Positions 45,902 to 63,885 of a DNA stretch of 64,000 nt are shown piece by piece. Source of the DNA: Ignavibacteriota bacterium (GTDB taxonomy: Bacteria > Bacteroidota > Ignavibacteria > Ignavibacteriales > Ignavibacteriaceae); assembly GCA_013285405.1 (NCBI GenBank), contig CP053446.1:2279001-2343000 (forward strand), in the 5' to 3' direction. Made by a program: the position numbers and the translations under genes. The notes under the pieces are model-generated. The model ran no database searches. It saw nothing but the letters and a program-made list of their open reading frames with translations, and was not told the DNA's origin. Each line of letters opens with the position of its first letter. Position 1 is the stretch's first letter.

Positions 45902-45970
45902 ACGGGGTGAGGCCTCAATCTGTTAATGAAGAAAAACCTGCAGGAAATTATGAAGTAGAATTCAATGGTC

Positions 45971-46002
45971 ATTCTGACGAATCCGCCAACGGCGGACAGA
46001 AT
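45971..46002. repeat. nested palindrome ATTCTG..TCCGCC-AAC-GGCGGA..CAGAAT
   Basis: Inner stem TCCGCC/GGCGGA (45982-45996) with AAC loop and an outer ATTCTG/CAGAAT pair. The same inner hairpin with loop ACA occurs at 47865-47879 in the equivalent loop of another sorting domain. Read in frame in the orphan fragment. Confidence 0.65.
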
Positions 46003-46042
46003 CTCACGAGTGGTGTGTACTTTTATCAGTTAAGAGTTGGAG

Positions 46043-46063
46043 GTCCTGAAACAAGTTCAGGAC
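46043..46063. repeat. ACAAG-loop palindrome (GTCCTGAA / TTCAGGAC)
   Basis: 8-bp perfect stem and loop ACAAG. HTCS1 (53831-53851) and HTCS2 (62668-62688) carry the same loop with stem ATCCCGAA/TTCGGGAT: the changed stem base (T for C) is compensated on the other side (A for G). Here it is read as PETSSG, in the HTCS genes as IPKQVRD, so the reading frame through the element differs. Confidence 0.75.
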
Positions 46064-46097
46064 AAGGTTTTGTCGAAACGAAGAAGATGTTGATGCT

Positions 46098-50917: not shown

Positions 50918-53900
50918 ATGAAATCTTTGTTCAAAATAACGTTTGTCATTTTCGCATTTGGATATTCGCTTTGCATCGCTCAGCAATCAAAAATTACTTT
51001 TGAACATTTTGGATTAAAGGATGGTTTACCCTCACTTACCGTTCCCTGCCTTTTTCAAGATCGCATTGGTTATCTATGGTTTGGAACTTTCCATGGGATT
51101 GCTAAATATGATGGATATTTATTCGTTTCTTATACACCGATTGAAGGAGATTCAACTAGCATTTCAAATGCATATATCAGAGCTATTTGTGATGATAGTT
51201 ATGGAAATATCTGGATTGGACACTCACAAGGACTAGATAAATTTAATAATTCAACAGAATCCTTTACTCATTTTATTCTTAATAATAAATTTCCCTTAAC
51301 GGATTGGTGTAATCATGTGCTTTCACTCTTGGAGGATAGTGATAGTACCCTTTGGATAGGTACAGGGCGTGGGCTGTATAAATTTAACCGGGAAACAGAA
51401 TCTTTTGAGTGGTATACTCACAATGACAGTGATTCAGGAAGTTTAAGCAGCAATAATATTAATGCAATTTATGAAGATAAAGATAAAAAGCTTTGGTTTG
51501 CAACTGGTAAAGGCCTAAACTATTATAATAAAGAAAAGAACTCATTTGTACATTATTTATATCCAGCAGAAAAATATAAAGACTATGGAAATGTTGATAA
51601 TCCTTATTGGCTGCTATCAATTCTAGAAGATAATGTCGGAACATTTTGGCTTGGTAGTAGTGGAGGAATAATAGAGTTTAATCGGAAAACAAATGAACAT
51701 GTTTTATATCAGCATGATGAGAAAGATCCTGAGAGTCTGGCTGATAATATAGTGCTTTCAATTAGTGAAGACAAAGAAGGCTACCTCTGGATTAGTACTA
51801 AAGAAGGAGTTGACATTTTTGATAAAAAAACTAAAGTATTTTATCATAATAAACATGACAACAAAGATCCCCAAAGTATTGGCAGCAATGATGTTGGACA
51901 AATAATTACTGAGAAATCGGGAACAATTTGGATTTCTCTTTACGGAGCTGGAGGTGTGGCTAAATATACACCACCAAATCCACAGATAAAGCAATATAAT
52001 GATAACAACTTCTTATCAGGAAATATTCAGATAATTTACGAAGATGAAAAGAAAACACTTTGGGTTGGATTACAAGATGGACTTTTAAAATTTAATTCCA
52101 AAAAAGAAATTTTTGAAAAAATACTTTTCAATAAAGAGATAAATCATATTTTAGAAGACCAGACTGGAACTCTATGGGCTAATATTTGGAAAGAAGGTAT
52201 TTATAAGATCAATAAGAATGATATAGCAAATACATTTCTAGATGCACGAAAAGCAAAGTTTCCAACTTCAAATACAGCAATATGTAAAAGTGAAAATGGA
52301 AATTTTTGGATTGGAAATACGGTAGGGGATATTTTTCAATTTAATCCTCTTTCTGATGAAAGTGAAATTATAGCTCATTATCCTACCTGGATCGAAGCAG
52401 TTTTTGAAGATTCAAAAGGAATATTATGGATTGGCACCAGAGAGATGGGAATAATATGTTATAATATTAATGCAAAGGTATTCAATTATTATTCACATAT
52501 TGCTAATGACTCATTGACAATAAGCGGTAATAACGTAACTCAATTTTGTGAAGATAAAAATGGCGATATCTGGATTATTGCTAGCCAAACAATAAATAAA
52601 TTTGAAAGATTAAAAAATAGATTTATACATAATATTGGAAAAAATAATTTCCCTAATGATGTATACTATATTATGGAAGATGGAAACAGAAAGCTTTGGT
52701 TTACTACTCTCGCGGGTGCTGTCATATATGATATTGATTCGAACAACTTCACAACTTATAGAAATTTAATCGGTATTGGATATAAAAGTAAAAATGGAGA
52801 AATATTATTAAATGATTTTAGCAGTATTATTCGATTCAATCCCGATAGTTTAAGAGAAAATCCTTTTATACCACCTATAGTTATTACAGATTTCAGGTTG
52901 TTTGAAAAATCTCATTCCTTCGGAAAAGAAATTCAAGTGCCATATAATGAAAACTATATCTCTTTTGAATTTGCTGCTTTGAGTTTTATCAATCCTGAAA
53001 AAAATCAGTATTCTTATAAAATGGAAGGAGTGGATAAGGATTGGATTAATTCCGGTTCAAGAAGATATGCTTCTTATCCAAATCTTGATCCGGGTGAATA
53101 TACTTTCAGAGTGAAAGGATCCAACAACGATGGTGTTTGGAATGAAGCAGGAACTTCGGTTCTAATAATTATTTCTCCGCCTTGGTGGAAAACCTGGTGG
53201 GCTTATTCTTCGTATGCTTTGATTTTTGCATTTACTCTTTTTGGAATCAGACGTTATGAGATGAATAGATTAAAACTGAAAGATAAGATAAAGCTGGATG
53301 AAGCTGTGCTTAAAGAAAAAGAAGAAACGGATAAAATGAAATCGAGTTTCTTTGCAAATATCTCCCACGAGTTTAGAACACCGCTTACATTAATTCTTGG
53401 ACCAGCAGAAAAAATCAGTTCAAAAACTTCAGATGATGTCGTAAAAGATGCGAACATTATTAAAAGAAACTCAAGACGATTACTCCAATTGATCAATCAA
53501 TTATTAGATCTATCAAAGCTGGAGTCAGGTAAGTTAAAGCTTGAAGTCTCGAAAGGAAATATCGTTTCATTTGTAAAAGGTGTTGCTTTATCATTCGAAT
53601 CTCTGGCTGAATCAAAGGATATAACTCTAAAACTTCTTCCTGAAAAAGAATTTATTGAAATGTATTTCGATAAAGAGAAAATGATGAAGATATTGACGAA
53701 CATTTTATCGAATGCATTCAAGTTTACTTCGGAAGAAGGAAAAATTACGGTTTCGATTAAAGAGAATAAATTGAGTAGTGTCATTTCGAGGGAGTCATCG
53801 ACCGAGAAATCTCTTTCGACTAACAATGAGATCCCGAAACAAGTTCGGGATGACAACGTAGTAGAAATAAAAATCAGAGATACCGGAATCGGAATAACTC

Positions 53901-55015
53901 AGGAAGAAATTCCAAAACTCTTTGACAGATTCTACCAGGTTGACAGCTCACACACAAGAGAATATGAAGGAACAGGAATTGGACTAGCTCTTACAAAAGA
54001 ATTAGTTGAGCTTCATCACGGAAGAATAATTGTTGAAAGTGAAAAAGGAATATTTACTGAATTTACTTTGCAATTTCCTCTTGGCAGAGATCATCTAAAT
54101 GATGAGGAGATCATTGATGAAAAAGCAGATGTCATTCTGACACCCGACAAAGTCGGGATGAAGAATCTCTCTCTTGATAGCACTGTGCTAATTAATACCA
54201 GAGATTCTTCGTCGTCGGTCAGCAGCAGGACTCCTCAGAATGACATTGAAGCTAATGGAGACAAAACAATCATCCTTGTTGTTGAGGACAATTATGATAT
54301 GAGACAGTACATCCGAGAATCGCTCGACGGTAATTATCTGATTGAGGAAGCAGTCAACGGAGAACAAGGAGTTAGAAAAGCAGAAAAAATTATTCCCGAT
54401 CTGATTATCAGTGATATGATGATGCCGAAGATGGATGGGAACGAGTTAGTGAGAATATTGAAGAACGACGAAAAGACAAGTCACATCCCTATTATTCTTC
54501 TAACAGCAAAAGCAGGACAGGAAAATAAACTTGAAGGACTTGAGATTGGTGCGGATGATTATCTTACAAAGCCATTCGACATAAAAGAACTTCAAGTAAG
54601 AATTAAAAACCTGATAAGCATCAGGAAAAAGCTTCAGGAAAAGTTCAGCAAAATTGCAACTCAGATACCAGAAATAAATAAGCAAAAGCTAAGCAGTCTT
54701 GATGAAAAATTTATGGTAAGAGTTGGAGAAGTAATTGATAAACATATTTCGGAGGAGGAGTTTGATATAGAACAATTTTGTAGTGAAATCGGAATGAGCA
54801 GAACACAGCTTCATAGAAAACTCAAGGCACTAACAGGAAAATCAGCAAGTATTTATGTGAGATCGTTTAAACTAGAAAAAGCAAGGAAATTGATAGCTGA
54901 TCAGTCGGGAAATATCTCGGAAGTTGCTTACTCTTTGGGATTTTCCAGCCCAGCTTATTTTTCCAAATGTTTCAAAGAAGAATTTGGTTACCCGCCGAGT
55001 GATGTGAAAAAATAA
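50918..55015 (+). CDS. hybrid two-component system protein (Reg_prop sensor, HisKA, receiver, AraC HTH), HTCS1
   Basis: 1365 aa. Order: signal peptide (1-21); repeated Reg_prop blades (about 25-660, motifs such as LWFGTFHGIAKYDG, IWIGHSQGLDKFN, LWIGTGRGLYKFN) forming a periplasmic propeller sensor; Y_Y_Y domain (about 674-752); membrane segment (about 762-778); HisKA with H817 in FFANISHEFRTPL; HATPase (DTGIGI, GTGIGLAL); receiver with D1166 (LIISDMMMPKMDG); C-terminal AraC-type HTH (about 1265-1365). Such HTCS proteins sense sugars or oligosaccharides and activate nearby loci. Two palindromic elements are inserted in frame: in the ATPase domain (about residues 954-980) and in the kinase-receiver linker (about 1071-1109). 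Probably co-transcribed with the receptor. Confidence 0.95.
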   Translation: MKSLFKITFVIFAFGYSLCIAQQSKITFEHFGLKDGLPSLTVPCLFQDRIGYLWFGTFHGIAKYDGYLFVSYTPIEGDSTSISNAYIRAICDDSYGNIWIGHSQGLDKFNNSTESFTHFILNNKFPLTDWCNHVLSLLEDSDSTLWIGTGRGLYKFNRETESFEWYTHNDSDSGSLSSNNINAIYEDKDKKLWFATGKGLNYYNKEKNSFVHYLYPAEKYKDYGNVDNPYWLLSILEDNVGTFWLGSSGGIIEFNRKTNEHVLYQHDEKDPESLADNIVLSISEDKEGYLWISTKEGVDIFDKKTKVFYHNKHDNKDPQSIGSNDVGQIITEKSGTIWISLYGAGGVAKYTPPNPQIKQYNDNNFLSGNIQIIYEDEKKTLWVGLQDGLLKFNSKKEIFEKILFNKEINHILEDQTGTLWANIWKEGIYKINKNDIANTFLDARKAKFPTSNTAICKSENGNFWIGNTVGDIFQFNPLSDESEIIAHYPTWIEAVFEDSKGILWIGTREMGIICYNINAKVFNYYSHIANDSLTISGNNVTQFCEDKNGDIWIIASQTINKFERLKNRFIHNIGKNNFPNDVYYIMEDGNRKLWFTTLAGAVIYDIDSNNFTTYRNLIGIGYKSKNGEILLNDFSSIIRFNPDSLRENPFIPPIVITDFRLFEKSHSFGKEIQVPYNENYISFEFAALSFINPEKNQYSYKMEGVDKDWINSGSRRYASYPNLDPGEYTFRVKGSNNDGVWNEAGTSVLIIISPPWWKTWWAYSSYALIFAFTLFGIRRYEMNRLKLKDKIKLDEAVLKEKEETDKMKSSFFANISHEFRTPLTLILGPAEKISSKTSDDVVKDANIIKRNSRRLLQLINQLLDLSKLESGKLKLEVSKGNIVSFVKGVALSFESLAESKDITLKLLPEKEFIEMYFDKEKMMKILTNILSNAFKFTSEEGKITVSIKENKLSSVISRESSTEKSLSTNNEIPKQVRDDNVVEIKIRDTGIGITQEEIPKLFDRFYQVDSSHTREYEGTGIGLALTKELVELHHGRIIVESEKGIFTEFTLQFPLGRDHLNDEEIIDEKADVILTPDKVGMKNLSLDSTVLINTRDSSSSVSSRTPQNDIEANGDKTIILVVEDNYDMRQYIRESLDGNYLIEEAVNGEQGVRKAEKIIPDLIISDMMMPKMDGNELVRILKNDEKTSHIPIILLTAKAGQENKLEGLEIGADDYLTKPFDIKELQVRIKNLISIRKKLQEKFSKIATQIPEINKQKLSSLDEKFMVRVGEVIDKHISEEEFDIEQFCSEIGMSRTQLHRKLKALTGKSASIYVRSFKLEKARKLIADQSGNISEVAYSLGFSSPAYFSKCFKEEFGYPPSDVKK
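53779..53855. repeat. 77-bp composite palindromic element in frame inside the HTCS1 ATPase domain
   Basis: Outer ends TGTCAT (53779-53784) and ATGACA (53850-53855); internal GAGAAATCTC; and the ACAAG-loop hairpin ATCCCGAA/TTCGGGAT at 53831-53851. It is placed between two beta-strands of the HATPase fold: GKITVSIKEN before it and VVEIKIRDTGIGI after it. It encodes about 26 extra residues rich in Ser, Glu and Arg. The left part (TCATTTCGAGGGAG...CGAGAAATCTC) resembles repeats widespread in Bacteroidota genomes. Confidence 0.8.
54130..54245. repeat. 116-bp composite palindromic element in frame in the HTCS1 linker
   Basis: Nested perfect inverted repeats: TGTCATTCTGA (54130-54140) with TCAGAATGACA (54235-54245), and GAAGAATCTCT (54160-54170) with AGAGATTCTTC (54200-54210). 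A further small hairpin CCCGAC-AAA-GTCGGG sits in the left arm (54143-54157). It encodes the linker between the HATPase and receiver domains. A diverged copy lies at the same place in HTCS2. Confidence 0.85.
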
Positions 55016-57676: not shown

Positions 57677-59536
57677 GTGAAAGCTCTATTATTATCATTC
57701 TCGCAAAATGTAATGTCGTATTTAATCATACGCTTTACATCATATAAATTATTATTAACCATACTTCTATCAGTAATAATTTTTACTGATTCATCAAAAG
57801 CAGATCCTGTAATTGATTGGAATGCAACGGCAGTTACTGTACAGGGTAGAGTTCCGGCACAAAGCGGTGGTCTCGTTGACTTAGCATATCTGCATATAGC
57901 AATTTATGATGCAGTTAATGCTATTGATGCTAATCATCCGATTTTTGCAATTGATCCACCAAACAAAGTTCCTTGGGCAAACCTTCAAGCTGCTGTTCAT
58001 TCAGCTGCACGTAGAATACTTATGACATTTTATTCTGCCGATAGCGTTTTTATAGATTCGGTTTATCAAGCAAGAATGTCTCTAATTCCGAATGATAGTA
58101 CTAAAACAAAAGGAGCTGAAATCGGAAATACTACTGCAACTATGTACCTTTCATATCGTACCGGTGATGGTAGGCTAGCAAATATTCCTTACGTCTGGCA
58201 GCCATTAGCTCCCGGAGTTTATCAACCTACTCCTCCTGGTTCTCCACAATATACACCAGTTGCACCATGGCAAGCACAACTTCTGCCATTTTCGTTTAAT
58301 TCACCTTCACAATATCGTGCACCAGCTCCTCCATTATTGACGAGTGCAGAATACACTGCTGATTTTAATGAAGTAAAAATGTATGGCTCGAGTGACTTTA
58401 CTAATACAACTCCGGAAATGAGGGAAATTGCATTCTTTCATACTGAAAATCCTGGGATACACGTACCACGAAATATCCGAGATTTTGCAGCATCTCAGAA
58501 TTTATCTTTAATTGACAATGCCCGGTTCTTTGTTCAGATATATGTTTCCATTGGAGATGCATTGATTAGTGGATGGAATTCAAAATATTATTACAATCGT
58601 TGGAGGCCATCAACAGCAATACGTAATGCCGATATTGATGGTAATCCCGCAACAGATCAGGATACTTTATGGCTGCCATTAGCTGTCACACCTCGTCATC
58701 CCGAATATGTGGCGGCACACGGTGTTGTAAGTGGGGCGATTGCGTACACAATCAACAATTTTTTTGCTACTCCAAATATTACAATTACACTTACAAGTAC
58801 CGTTACAGGGACTCAACATACATTCACTAACATTTATGATTACTTAGATGAAATTACGAATGCCCGGATATGGGGTGGAATGCATTTCAGAACTTCTTGT
58901 CAGCAAGGAGTTCAAATTGGACAAGATGTTGCTAACTATGTTGCAAATCTTTTTGTACCTGTTGAATTGATTAGTTTAAATTCTATGATAAATGGAAGTG
59001 ATATCACATTAACTTGGATTACTGCAACAGAAATAAATAACCAAGGTTTTGAGATTTACCGCAATGGAAATAAGATTGCTTTTGTTGAAGGTAAGGGTAC
59101 AACAACCGAAACTCAGAATTATTCTTTCACTGATAAAAATCTTGAGTCCGGTATTTACAATTACAGACTTAACCAGATTGACTTTGATGGTACGCAAGAA
59201 GTTGTTGGAGAGTTGACTGTGTATCTAACATTACCGGAAGAATTCAGTCTGGAACAGAACTTCCCTAACCCATTCAATCCGAGTACGGTAATCGGTTATC
59301 AGTTACCGGTAACCGGTTTCGTATCATTGAAAATTTATGACGTGTTGGGAAACGAAGTTGCAACTCTTGTTAACGAAGAAAAACCTGCTGGAAGTTATGA
59401 AGTTGAATTTAACAGTCATTCTGACGGAGGTCAGAACCTGCCTGCCGGTAGGCCAGGTCTTTCAAGCGGAATTTATTTATATAAATTACAAGTAGGAAAT
59501 TTTATTGAAACAAAGAAGATGTTGTTGTTGAAGTAA
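57677..59536 (+). CDS. secreted vanadium haloperoxidase/PAP2-like phosphatase with T9SS sorting domain
   Basis: 619 aa. The start is GTG 57677, 6 nt after AGGAGG. A long N-terminal signal region (through about residue 42, SVIIFTDSSKA) precedes the catalytic domain (about 45-415). Vanadate/phosphate-site motifs are present in the form seen in secreted vanadium-dependent haloperoxidase-related proteins: YYYNRWRPSTAIRNAD, TPRHPEYVAAHGVVSGAIAY and ARIWGGMHFRTSCQQG. Then come a fibronectin-like module (VPVELISLNSMINGSDITLTWITATE) and the sorting domain (LEQNFPNPFNPSTVIGYQLP...TKKMLLLK). Activity could be halide oxidation or acid phosphatase; sequence alone does not decide. Palindromes are inserted in its sorting-domain loop (59419-59458). 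Confidence 0.85.
   Translation: MKALLLSFSQNVMSYLIIRFTSYKLLLTILLSVIIFTDSSKADPVIDWNATAVTVQGRVPAQSGGLVDLAYLHIAIYDAVNAIDANHPIFAIDPPNKVPWANLQAAVHSAARRILMTFYSADSVFIDSVYQARMSLIPNDSTKTKGAEIGNTTATMYLSYRTGDGRLANIPYVWQPLAPGVYQPTPPGSPQYTPVAPWQAQLLPFSFNSPSQYRAPAPPLLTSAEYTADFNEVKMYGSSDFTNTTPEMREIAFFHTENPGIHVPRNIRDFAASQNLSLIDNARFFVQIYVSIGDALISGWNSKYYYNRWRPSTAIRNADIDGNPATDQDTLWLPLAVTPRHPEYVAAHGVVSGAIAYTINNFFATPNITITLTSTVTGTQHTFTNIYDYLDEITNARIWGGMHFRTSCQQGVQIGQDVANYVANLFVPVELISLNSMINGSDITLTWITATEINNQGFEIYRNGNKIAFVEGKGTTTETQNYSFTDKNLESGIYNYRLNQIDFDGTQEVVGELTVYLTLPEEFSLEQNFPNPFNPSTVIGYQLPVTGFVSLKIYDVLGNEVATLVNEEKPAGSYEVEFNSHSDGGQNLPAGRPGLSSGIYLYKLQVGNFIETKKMLLLK
59419..59458. repeat. two adjacent in-frame palindromes in a sorting-domain loop
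   Basis: TTCTGAC-GGAG-GTCAGAA (59419-59436), then ACCTG.CCT..AGG.CCAGGT (59436-59458), the latter of the same family as 2664-2684 and 31497-31517. Read in frame as SDGGQNLPAGRPG between YEVEFNSH and LSSGIYLY; the sister domain at 57565-57575 has only SARG there. Confidence 0.75.
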
Positions 59537-59769: not shown

Positions 59770-62700
59770 TTGAAAAGACTAATCGCCATTTTTATTTTAT
59801 TTGCTCTGATATTAGCAAGTCGATATTTGCTTGCACAGCAATCGAAACTATCTTTTGAGCATTTGGGATTACATCCAAAGATTACATGTGCATTTCAGGA
59901 TCGGACCGGTTATTTGTGGTTTGGTTCCAGTCATGGTGTATTCAGATATGATGGGTATTCTTTTAAAGATTATACGACTTTTAAAGAAAACACTTCTAAT
60001 CTTACTAATGCAGAAGTTCAGGCCATCTGTGATGACAGCGAAGGTAATATCTGGATTGGACATGTTCAGGGTCTTGACAGACTCGATCCAAAAACCGATG
60101 AAGTAAAACATTTCATACTTAATCCAAATGCACCTGTAACTGACTGGAGTAATCATGTCCTCGCCTTACTTGAAGACCGCGAAAGAAAATTATGGGTCGG
60201 AACTGGTGATGGTCTATATCTCTTCGATCAGAACACACAAACTTTTAAAAGAATAATTCACGATAGCTCAGAAGTCAATAGTATAATTAATAATAATGTT
60301 AATGCAATCTATGAAGATCGTTCTGGAACGGTTTGGTTTGGTACAGGAGGAGGACTAGATAAATTGGATAGTTCCGGAAATAAATTTCTTCACGTCTGGA
60401 ACGAAAAAATAAATTCATCAAAACAGGATGGTGGAATCTATTCTATCCTTTCAATCTTTGAGGATAGTGATGGCGTCCTCTGGATTGGAACATGGGCTGG
60501 ATTAGTAGAATTTAAAAAAGAAAATAATTCCTTCACTATTTACCAGAATGATCCAAAAGATCCGCAGAGCTTAGCTGTTAATTATATCTTTTCAATCAAC
60601 GAAGATTTAAATGGAAATTTATGGCTCGCTACAAATGGTGTTGACATTTTTAACAAGCATACAAAAAAATTTACTCACCATAATCATGATAAGTTTGATT
60701 CTAATAGTTTAAGTGACGATGGTGTGTCAAATATTCTTGTTGAAAAATCCGGAACAATATGGATTTCAACGTATGGCAGAGGAATAAACAAATATATTCA
60801 GCCTAACCGGTATGTTAAAAAATATTATCTGGAAACTGCTGAAATATTAAATGCCGGCTTTGGGGATTTAGTTGAGGATAATCAAGGCAAGATTTGGATT
60901 GGAACAGATATAGGGCTTATAAGTTTTGATCCTGATAAAGAAATATTTAAAGAAGAAACATTTAAAAAAACTATAACAGGATTATTAGTGGATGAAGAAG
61001 GAACTCTTTGGATATACAGTACAACTAATAGAGCCCTTTATTATAAGAATGATGAAGAAAATGAAATAAAACAATTTTTCTATTTTGATGGAAAACCTTT
61101 TTATAATTCAGTTTCTGGTATGACTAATTGCAAAGATGGAAGTATATGGATTGCTACAGATGGCGGTGAAATTTTAAAATTAAATCAATCCAAAAAAAGA
61201 ATTGAACAAATTGCAAAGTTTGATAACTCTATAACAGGTTTATATGAAGATAAAGAAGGTCTGTTGTGGATAGGTACTTACGATGCAGGTGTTATAAGTT
61301 ATAATCCAATTAATAAAACTTCTACTCGATACATTTCTGATCCCAAGGATTCTTTGACATTAATTGGTAATCAAGTATTTAATTTTTGTGAAGATGGTCA
61401 GGGGATTTTATGGTGTCTGGCAAACAGCAGTCCAAATAAATTTGACAGGATAAATCAAAAATGGATTCGGTGGAAAGGAAAAGAAGGATTTCCTGATAAT
61501 GCAATGACATTAATTGATGATAATAAGGGAAATCTTTGGATGAGCAGTTCAAACGGTGCATTTAAATATAATCCATTTACAAAAGAAGTTACTAAATATA
61601 ACGACATTAAACTCTCCTGGAGTTATAAAGTACGAAACGGCGAACTATATTTTATCTCAACTACTTTCTCCAGCGAAAGGCAGAGTATAACCAGAATTAA
61701 TCCTGATAATATTTTTAATAATAATTTTATACCACCTATCGTTATTACAACATTCAAAAAATTTGAAAAACAATTTCCATTTGGGGAAGAGATTCAATTG
61801 CCATATGATGAAAATTTTATTTCCTTTGAATTTGCTGCCTTAAATTTTATAAGCCCTGAGAGGAACCAATATGCCTATATGATGGAAGGAGTTAATAAAG
61901 ATTGGGTGTATTCGGGAACAAGAAGATATGCTTCCTATCCTAATCTTGACCCTGGCGAATACATTTTCAGAGTGAAAGGATCAAACAACGACGGTGTCTG
62001 GAATGAGGAAGGGACTTCGTTGGTAATATTTATTTCTCCGCCCTGGTGGAAAACCTGGTGGGCATATTCTTCGTATGCTTTGATTTTTTCATTCACTTTG
62101 TATGGAATCAGACGATATGAGATGAACAGGTTAAAACTGAAAGACAAGATAAAGCTTGATGAAGCTGTGCTTAAAGAAAAAGAAGAAACAGATAAAATGA
62201 AATCGAGTTTCTTTGCAAACATCTCCCACGAATTCAGAACACCCTTGACATTAATTCTTGGACCTGCAGAAAAAATCAGTTCAAAAACTTCAGATGATGT
62301 TATTAAAGATGCAAATATTATACAAAGGAATTCTCGTCGGCTTTTACAATTAGTAAATCAACTACTTGATCTTTCAAAGCTTGAAGCAGGTAAAATAAAG
62401 CTTGAAGTTTCTAAGGGAAATATAGTTTCATTTGTAAAAGGAGTTGCTTTATCATTTGAATCATTAGCTGAATCTAAAGACATAAGCTTAAAGATACATT
62501 CTGAAAAAGAATTTATTGAAATGTATTTCGATAAAGAGAAAATGATGAAAATATTGACGAATATATTATCGAATGCATTTAAGTTTACACCTGAAGAAGG
62601 AGAGATTACAGTTTCGGTAGCCGTACAAAATGCTGAATATATTTCAGCATCTTATTCAAAGCTGGAGATCCCGAAACAAGTTCGGGATGACAACGTAGTA

Positions 62701-63885
62701 GAAATAAAAATCAGAGATACCGGAATCGGAATAGCTCAGGAAGAAATTCCAAAACTCTTTGACAGATTTTACCAGGTTGACAGTTCGCACACAAGAGAAT
62801 ATGAAGGAACAGGAATTGGACTTGCTCTTACAAAAGAATTAGTTGAATTGCATCACGGAAGAATAATTGTTGAAAGTGAAAAAGGAATTCCCGACAAAGT
62901 CGGGACAGGCTGGACAGAATTCACTTTGCTATTTCCTCTTGGTAGAGAACATTTGTCCGAAGGACTCCTATCGGAGAAAGATGATGAGATTATCGAAGAA
63001 AAAATAGATGTCATTCTGAGTCCCAACGAAGTCGGGGCGAAGAATCTAGAATTGGTTGGAAATGATAAGAAAACAGATTCTTCATCGTCCGTCAGTAGCC
63101 GGACTCCTCAGAATGACAACGAAGTAAACGAGGACAAAACAATCATTCTTGTTGTTGAGGACAATTATGATATGAGACAGTATATCCGAGAATCACTTGA
63201 CGGAAATTATATGATCGAAGAAGCTGTTAATGGTGAACAAGGAGTTCGAAAAGCAGAAAAAATTATTCCCGATTTAATTATCAGTGATATGATGATGCCG
63301 AAGATGGATGGAAACGAATTAGTCAGGATTTTGAAGAATGATGAAAAGACAAGTCACATTCCAATAATATTACTTACAGCAAAAGCAGGACAAGAAAATA
63401 AACTTGAAGGACTTGAGATTGGTGCGGATGATTATCTTACGAAACCATTCGATATAAAAGAACTTCAGATAAGAATTAAAAATCTTATAAACATTCGAAG
63501 AAAATTACAGGAGAAGTTCAGCAAAATTGAAAATGATTTTCCTGTAGTTACAGGATTGAAACTCCAAAGTCTTGATGAGAAATTTCTTATCAAAGTAAAT
63601 GAAGTGATAGAGAAACATATCTCTGAAGAAGAATTCAGTATTGAGGAATTTGGGAAAGAAGTTGGGATGAGTAGATCTCAGTTCCACAGAAAATTTATAG
63701 CCATAACAGGAAAACCAGCCAGTATATATTTACGATCCGTACGATTATCCAGAGCTAAAAAAATGATTGAAGGAAAAACAGGAAATATTTCAGAGATTGC
63801 TTATTCTGTAGGTTTTTCCAGTCTGTCTTATTTTTCAAAATGTTTTAAAGAAGAATTTGGATACCCACCGAGCGATTTAGTATGA
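59770..63885 (+). CDS. hybrid two-component system protein, HTCS2 (paralogue of HTCS1)
   Basis: 1371 aa, same architecture as HTCS1: signal peptide (1-23), Reg_prop propeller (about 27-665), Y_Y_Y domain, membrane segment (about 765-781), HisKA with H820, HATPase, receiver with D1173, AraC-type HTH (about 1272-1370). From the Y_Y_Y domain to the receiver the two proteins are almost identical, while the propellers have diverged, as expected for duplicated sensors with different ligands. The start is TTG 59770. Unlike HTCS1 it has no TonB receptor before it. Three palindromic elements are read in frame (62630-62688, 62889-62905, 63009-63118). Confidence 0.95.
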   Translation: MKRLIAIFILFALILASRYLLAQQSKLSFEHLGLHPKITCAFQDRTGYLWFGSSHGVFRYDGYSFKDYTTFKENTSNLTNAEVQAICDDSEGNIWIGHVQGLDRLDPKTDEVKHFILNPNAPVTDWSNHVLALLEDRERKLWVGTGDGLYLFDQNTQTFKRIIHDSSEVNSIINNNVNAIYEDRSGTVWFGTGGGLDKLDSSGNKFLHVWNEKINSSKQDGGIYSILSIFEDSDGVLWIGTWAGLVEFKKENNSFTIYQNDPKDPQSLAVNYIFSINEDLNGNLWLATNGVDIFNKHTKKFTHHNHDKFDSNSLSDDGVSNILVEKSGTIWISTYGRGINKYIQPNRYVKKYYLETAEILNAGFGDLVEDNQGKIWIGTDIGLISFDPDKEIFKEETFKKTITGLLVDEEGTLWIYSTTNRALYYKNDEENEIKQFFYFDGKPFYNSVSGMTNCKDGSIWIATDGGEILKLNQSKKRIEQIAKFDNSITGLYEDKEGLLWIGTYDAGVISYNPINKTSTRYISDPKDSLTLIGNQVFNFCEDGQGILWCLANSSPNKFDRINQKWIRWKGKEGFPDNAMTLIDDNKGNLWMSSSNGAFKYNPFTKEVTKYNDIKLSWSYKVRNGELYFISTTFSSERQSITRINPDNIFNNNFIPPIVITTFKKFEKQFPFGEEIQLPYDENFISFEFAALNFISPERNQYAYMMEGVNKDWVYSGTRRYASYPNLDPGEYIFRVKGSNNDGVWNEEGTSLVIFISPPWWKTWWAYSSYALIFSFTLYGIRRYEMNRLKLKDKIKLDEAVLKEKEETDKMKSSFFANISHEFRTPLTLILGPAEKISSKTSDDVIKDANIIQRNSRRLLQLVNQLLDLSKLEAGKIKLEVSKGNIVSFVKGVALSFESLAESKDISLKIHSEKEFIEMYFDKEKMMKILTNILSNAFKFTPEEGEITVSVAVQNAEYISASYSKLEIPKQVRDDNVVEIKIRDTGIGIAQEEIPKLFDRFYQVDSSHTREYEGTGIGLALTKELVELHHGRIIVESEKGIPDKVGTGWTEFTLLFPLGREHLSEGLLSEKDDEIIEEKIDVILSPNEVGAKNLELVGNDKKTDSSSSVSSRTPQNDNEVNEDKTIILVVEDNYDMRQYIRESLDGNYMIEEAVNGEQGVRKAEKIIPDLIISDMMMPKMDGNELVRILKNDEKTSHIPIILLTAKAGQENKLEGLEIGADDYLTKPFDIKELQIRIKNLINIRRKLQEKFSKIENDFPVVTGLKLQSLDEKFLIKVNEVIEKHISEEEFSIEEFGKEVGMSRSQFHRKFIAITGKPASIYLRSVRLSRAKKMIEGKTGNISEIAYSVGFSSLSYFSKCFKEEFGYPPSDLV
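62630..62688. repeat. two in-frame palindromes in the HTCS2 ATPase domain
   Basis: ATGCTGAA-TATAT-TTCAGCAT (62630-62650) followed by the ACAAG-loop hairpin ATCCCGAA/TTCGGGAT (62668-62688). Same beta-hairpin as in HTCS1, but the left part is a different palindrome from the TCATTTCGAGGGAG part found there, so the site has been hit or replaced more than once. Confidence 0.8.
62889..62905. repeat. in-frame palindrome TCCCGAC-AAA-GTCGGGA, present in HTCS2 only
   Basis: HTCS1 reads ESEKGIFTEFTL, HTCS2 reads ESEKGIPDKVGTGWTEFTL: seven extra residues, 21 nt, centred on a perfect 7-bp stem. The flanking DNA is otherwise very similar, giving a clean presence/absence comparison between paralogues. Confidence 0.85.
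63009..63118. repeat. 110-bp composite palindromic element in frame in the HTCS2 linker
   Basis: Nested perfect inverted repeats TGTCATTCTGAG (63009-63020) with CTCAGAATGACA (63107-63118), and GAAGAATCT (63039-63047) with AGATTCTTC (63075-63083). It corresponds to 54130-54245 in HTCS1 with a different central segment. Encodes the kinase-receiver linker. Confidence 0.85.

Follow-up and report, generated by a model that had tools for sequence, protein, structure and literature searches.

Repeats of the CGTC/TGTC REP superfamily, which includes the Rickettsia palindromic elements RPE-4 and RPE-6, are known inside genes (PMC3733652). The CGTC-tagged REPs described by Di Nocera et al. (2013) end in a 3′ tail CCA in most, though not all, members, and have been reported without a dedicated transposase (PMC3733652); GTAG tags are the subject of the published TnpA-REP work (PMC8266576). 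Xanthomonas campestris and X. oryzae, for example, carry different REPs at about the same site of recB (PMC3733652).

In the 64,000-nucleotide stretch of an Ignavibacteriota genome analysed here (the window), a hybrid two-component kinase, kinase A, carries a dimer of TGTC-tagged REPs in the coding sequence of its HATPase domain. The element conforms to the CGTC/TGTC REP superfamily in its tag, its stem and loop, and the orientation of its dimer. It shares with the CGTC REPs the TGTC variant of the tag, an 8-bp stem opening with A-T pairs and a 5-nt loop, as well as a preponderance of head-to-head dimers and alternative complementary stems, and CGTC REPs likewise occur in Chlorobi and Bacteroidetes, with some copies intragenic (PMC3733652). 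Two features set the present repeats apart: they end in CT(C), where most CGTC REPs have CCA, and they include a second class with long loops (TCT, TTC and TGC stems), beyond the 4-5 nt described (PMC3733652). The type of host gene is also new relative to the CGTC REP papers that we found. Like the kinase-loop REPs, RPE-4 and RPE-6 are small palindromes lying in frame inside conserved enzymes, their kinship following from the assignment in PMC3733652; RPE-1 (~150 bp) is longer and of a different family. Since the superfamily is known in genes and holds RPE-4 and RPE-6, the Rickettsia parallel drawn in the initial annotation is sound, and the kind of element is already known; unlike in Rickettsia, one loop is here hit repeatedly by unrelated elements. 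With the REPINs and their RAYT systems (PMC8266576, PMC6006769) the locus shares a unit built of two inverse REPs, the presence of RAYT-like genes in the same genome and a tag 5′ of the hairpin that could serve as a guide, but the tag is TGTC instead of GTAG and the borders of the RAYT genes here are without REPs.

Architecture of the insert

Kinase A is a 1365-aa protein in which HisKA, HATPase_c, REC and HTH are all intact, and its frame is open throughout; the insert lies in frame within the HATPase domain, as first claimed (Table 1). The coordinates and sequence of the 77-bp insert (53779-53855) were also given correctly, but what had been described as a single composite element is a pair of TGTC-tagged REP palindromes placed head-to-head, both halves having the family tag and the family orientation; GAGAAATCTC, listed as an inverted repeat of its own, is better assigned to the left REP, whose 3′ arm it forms. 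The right REP (27 bp) is TGTC-tagged, with a perfect 8-bp stem and a 5-nt loop, and its plus strand codes for IPKQVRDD. The left REP belongs to the long-loop class and lies outside the 8-9 bp stem and 4-5 nt loop by which CGTC/TGTC REPs are defined. The whole loop of kinase A, taken as one kinase, has an RNA folding z-score of only -1.7, owing to the partial degeneracy of the left REP. An Rfam scan of the window gave no match. In both kinase A and its paralogue, kinase B, the linker between HATPase and REC holds a second head-to-head dimer, of the long-loop REP class.

Table 1. Positions in the window of kinases A and B and of the palindromes that they carry
Feature	Positions	Strand	Remarks
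Kinase A, host of the insert	50918..55015	+	Hybrid two-component protein: Reg_prop propeller, Y_Y_Y, HisKA, HATPase_c, REC, AraC-type HTH
Left REP of dimer, kinase A	53779..53813	+	TGTCATTTCGAgggagtcatcgaccGAGAAATCTC; arms TGTCATTTCGA...GAGAAATCTC; 35 bp, partly degenerate
Spacer between left and right REP, kinase A	53814..53828	.	15 bp
Right REP of dimer, kinase A	53829..53855	-	AGATCCCGAAACAAGTTCGGGATGACA, read on minus strand (TGTCATCCCGAACTTGTTTCGGGATCT on -)
Left long-loop REP, HATPase-REC linker of A	54130..54168	+	TGTCATTCTGA...AAGAATCT
Right long-loop REP, HATPase-REC linker of A	54202..54245	-	Codes SSRTPQND
Kinase B, paralogue of A	59770..63885	+	REP dimer at same loop; gene 4.8 kb downstream
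Left REP of dimer, kinase B	62626..62652	+	Stem of another type than in A (ATGCTGAA/TTCAGCAT); CAAA in place of the TGTC tag, through decay
Right REP of dimer, kinase B	62666..62692	-	Identical to right REP of A
Palindrome CCCGACAAAGTCGGG, kinase B	62890..62904	.	In insertion ahead of last HATPase strand; site in A without it
Left long-loop REP, HATPase-REC linker of B	63009..63047	+	
Right long-loop REP, HATPase-REC linker of B	63075..63118	-	

A repeat family in the genome and its relatives

A genome search with the 77 bp found the whole composite to be unique and its right half to be multi-copy. By DNA similarity the right 27 bp have nine matches in their own genome, recurring at eight further places. 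A covariance model built on 13 copies, including the right REP of A itself (45.7 bits, E 3e-10, a score that is partly by construction since A is in the training set), returned, for the 3.86-Mb genome, 111 matches at E<=1 and 91 with stricter filters, which puts the family at ~90-110 copies. Among the 59 genomes searched, comprising this one and its relatives, the family is present in 27, and the richest relatives hold 53, 46, 45 and 36 copies.

The hairpin is well supported by covariation, as the earlier reading had proposed to check. Across 48 distinct ungapped copies from the own genome, 98.4% of stem cells are paired and six of the eight pairs show two-sided changes, a covariation score that none of 500 shuffles reached. 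The stem of eight pairs, closed over a 5-nt loop, opens with AU in 44/48 copies, followed by UA in 38/48. Neighbouring copies are arranged head-to-head in 22 cases, tail-to-tail in three and head-to-tail in three, and spacers are frequently 13-16 bp. Many members carry TGTC, AGTC or CGTC as their tag, which has been lost in the left REP of B and in a minority of copies; the 3′ tail is CT(C), with CT in nearly all copies of the own genome. The genome was covered stretch by stretch, by searches and by sampling; in 464 kb sampled in this way, strict patterns for tagged REPs turned up few copies, and the genome-wide counts given above are those of the right-REP family. A chance palindrome was considered for the right half of the insert and ruled out by the multi-copy family matches and the covariation.

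With genes called as open reading frames, most family copies appear intergenic. Within long frames of the own genome, copies lie in the three HTCS kinases and in what local translation suggests to be type IX sorting domains, a glycosyltransferase and a methylase-like gene, the last with two dimers. In the methylase-like gene (G000:C1:299856-301806; L183, L181) the two in-frame dimers stand ~1.9 kb apart. Type IX sorting-domain sequences of the window also contain in-frame REP-like palindromes, at 45967-46067 and 59414-59463; the first of these lies 3′ of the annotated frame, where an open stretch resembles the remnant of a sorting domain. REPs are also held in tandem arrays, with REPs in each period: L202 (G000:C1:3445337-3446427; period ~170 bp), L186 (1522257-1522828; ~227 bp) and G000:C1:660726-661155 (~121 bp). 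One relative has about 20 copies of a related TTCTCCCTTTAGTAAAGGGAGAT palindrome (L270 and other contigs of G034), with a spacing often near 245 bp.

Empty and filled loops in related kinases

Within the HATPase domain, the insert occupies the hairpin that joins strand GKITVSI to strand VVEIKIRDTGIGI. Same-genus kinases that lack it align to A up to residue ~193 and again from residue ~220-222, the two parts being contiguous in their DNA, and the loop measures 11-12 aligned residues in close relatives versus 39 in A and 31 in B. Related kinases without the insert have a short loop, a point that the initial annotation had proposed to check, and kinase A carries an in-frame insert in a conserved gene that is missing from orthologues, the mark by which RPEs are recognised. 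When 159 HisKA-HATPase cores were aligned by profile, 42 insertion entries reached 8 aa or more (two kinases being counted twice), and 39 of them fall at this same hairpin, in Ignavibacteria and other phyla alike. A loop in a Hymenobacter kinase (L089) is strongly palindromic (z -5.5), and related kinases have the same loop length without the palindrome.

Long loops are found at the hairpin without palindromes in some homologues, for instance the 26-aa loops of Spirosoma and Siphonobacter, and these indicate that the HATPase hairpin is generally length-tolerant and that palindromes exploit it. Such loops are also what one would expect if the insert of A were an ordinary variable linker, palindromic by chance, and it had been argued at the outset that long loops without palindromes in homologues would speak for that view. 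This much was found; yet the right half of the insert belongs to a multi-copy covarying family and both halves bear its tag and orientation, and we regard a chance linker as barely credible.

Unrelated palindromes at one hairpin

Reading the loop DNA of relatives in Ignavibacteriales and Calditrichota revealed at least five unrelated palindromes at the HATPase hairpin. TGTC REP dimers stand there in A, B, C (L148), L157 and L165, the dimer of C having decayed; CCCCCTTT..AAAGGGGG elements fill the hairpin of L154, L166, L143 and L163; and separate palindromes are present in L164, L161, L069 and, in a Calditrichaceae genome, L071. The insert of L164 has three more partial copies, while for those of L161 and L069 a search for multi-copy repeats in their own genomes detected none beyond the locus at the sensitivity used. 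Some long loops are also unusually structured: eight of 21 in Ignavibacteria fold at z<=-2.5, against 9 of 168 same-gene control windows (Fisher p 8e-5). By the same cut-off the palindromic share in Ignavibacteria (8/21) did not differ significantly from that in other phyla (2/16 long loops; p 0.14). The kinase set was picked by similarity to kinase A and may favour REP-bearing kinases. On a quick tree built without the loop, in which many branches are weak, the presence or absence of a palindrome changes state about 11 times, and insert-bearing kinases are scattered among short-loop ones.

The HATPase hairpin thus serves selfish DNA as a natural landing site, entered repeatedly by unrelated hairpin repeats. 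That unrelated palindromes should settle in the same enzyme loop again and again, apparently independently, seems to be new; in the open-licence literature we found no description of unrelated palindromes repeatedly filling one enzyme loop, the nearest case being recB of the two Xanthomonas species (PMC3733652), which involves two species and one gene, where the present case spans several genera, many kinase paralogues and at least five palindromes that are unrelated to one another. Nor did open-licence papers yield anything on the encoded peptides and repeat sequences. Whether DNA, RNA or protein actively draws or rewards hairpins at this site, making it a preferred or functionally favoured landing place beyond mere tolerance, is a further question, and we think this unlikely.

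The recurrence of hairpins of differing sequence at one position, together with the eight unusually structured long loops, might suggest that the palindrome is kept by selection, either at the mRNA level, where the hairpin would pause translation or offer an RNase site, or at the protein level, where the peptide would be a module for tuning the kinase. Most relatives, however, have no insert at all, the encoded peptides are wholly different, the dimer of C is decayed, and the same repeats are found in unrelated proteins and between genes, so that we hold a selected function to be very improbable.

The CCCCCTTT palindrome was also observed in frame in the sorting-domain hairpin of two relatives, L310 and L272 (IPLSPPLLKGESEAGGF), and this hairpin may be a second landing site.

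Probable spread among paralogous kinases

Comparisons between paralogues bear on how the elements reached so many kinases. Kinases A and B are identical over 53 bp from the right REP onward, and their identical codons peak just downstream of it (28/29, against roughly 0.4 to 0.85 around). L157 and L225 are near-identical sister kinases of one genome that differ by the element, filled in the former and empty with a short loop in the latter, and their divergence is higher beside the element than at the outer flanks. This suggests that some copies have spread by gene conversion or local recombination between paralogues. No target-site duplication is visible in the L157/L225 pair, since the border region has diverged; more generally, the 77-bp element of A corresponds to +27 codons against an ortholog and the 67 bp of L157 to about +19 codons, and with element and insert lengths unequal a clean insertion joint or target duplication cannot be seen.

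It is possible, if rather doubtful, that the loop elements have spread mainly with the kinase genes, by duplication, horizontal transfer and gene conversion from a few ancient insertions, and not by repeated transposition. Kinases A, B and C form a single clade (98*), which makes one ancestral insertion followed by exchange possible within the own genome; the identity peak of A and B at the REP and the divergent patch beside the L157 element point the same way, as does the perfect CCCCCTTT palindrome, of which only four occurrences were found in 59 genomes, three of them at the HATPase loop. Against this stand the number of unrelated palindromes in the loop, the scatter of filled kinases on the tree among short-loop ones, and the presence of the CCCCCTTT element in unrelated genes and settings, namely a sorting domain, a nuclease-like frame, methylase-like frames and intergenic DNA.

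We consider it likely that a REPIN-like non-autonomous DNA element, the TGTC REP dimer, entered the coding sequence of the HATPase hairpin and was tolerated in the loop, having presumably been moved by an HUH enzyme and later copied by gene conversion. This explanation draws on family membership, covariation, presence and absence at the same site, the several unrelated palindromes and the predicted intact fold. An HUH (Y1) transposase, RAYT-like or IS200-like, would mobilise the hairpins in the form of single-stranded DNA, and they would land broadly; in coding DNA the survivors would be in-frame insertions at length-tolerant loops, and insertions would collect in the HATPase hairpin as the most tolerant place of the kinase core. 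Later, short gene-conversion tracts may have copied or exchanged the element among the many paralogous kinases.

As to the mobiliser, the own genome has three RAYT-like genes and one IS200-like gene, whose products are candidate movers of the TGTC REPs. None of the four has REPs at its borders; a REPtron was sought around the RAYT-like genes and none was seen, the nearest REPs lying ~0.8 kb off and unpaired around the gene. REP copy number is weakly related to the number of Y1_Tnp genes (rho 0.17, p 0.19; in the family 0.37, p 0.026).

Predicted consequences for the kinases

Kinase A retains the invariant H, N and G-box residues. The AlphaFold model has a mean pLDDT of 89, with the insert (residues 163-190) near pLDDT 63 and the adjacent strands, 153-162 and 191-199, kept and confident; its closest solved folds are HK853-like kinases. 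The low score of the insert between confident strands indicates that it is likely a floppy extension of the beta-hairpin in an otherwise confident fold, and the model, the genomic repeat family and the short loops of relatives together bear out the proposal that repeat DNA is carried in frame and tolerated at a surface beta-hairpin. The encoded peptide, ~27 extra residues, is most likely neutral padding, the simplest reading of its role.

Intragenic REPs and RPEs have so far been catalogued one gene at a time, and their relevance to the protein has not been settled. The present kinases, dozens of paralogues sharing one domain, provide a replicated natural experiment, in which the same hairpin is empty or filled by at least five unrelated palindromes, and the near-identical pair of L157 (filled) and L225 (empty) allows a direct comparison of kinase activity. 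The kinase set shows a way in which selfish repeats lengthen enzymes.
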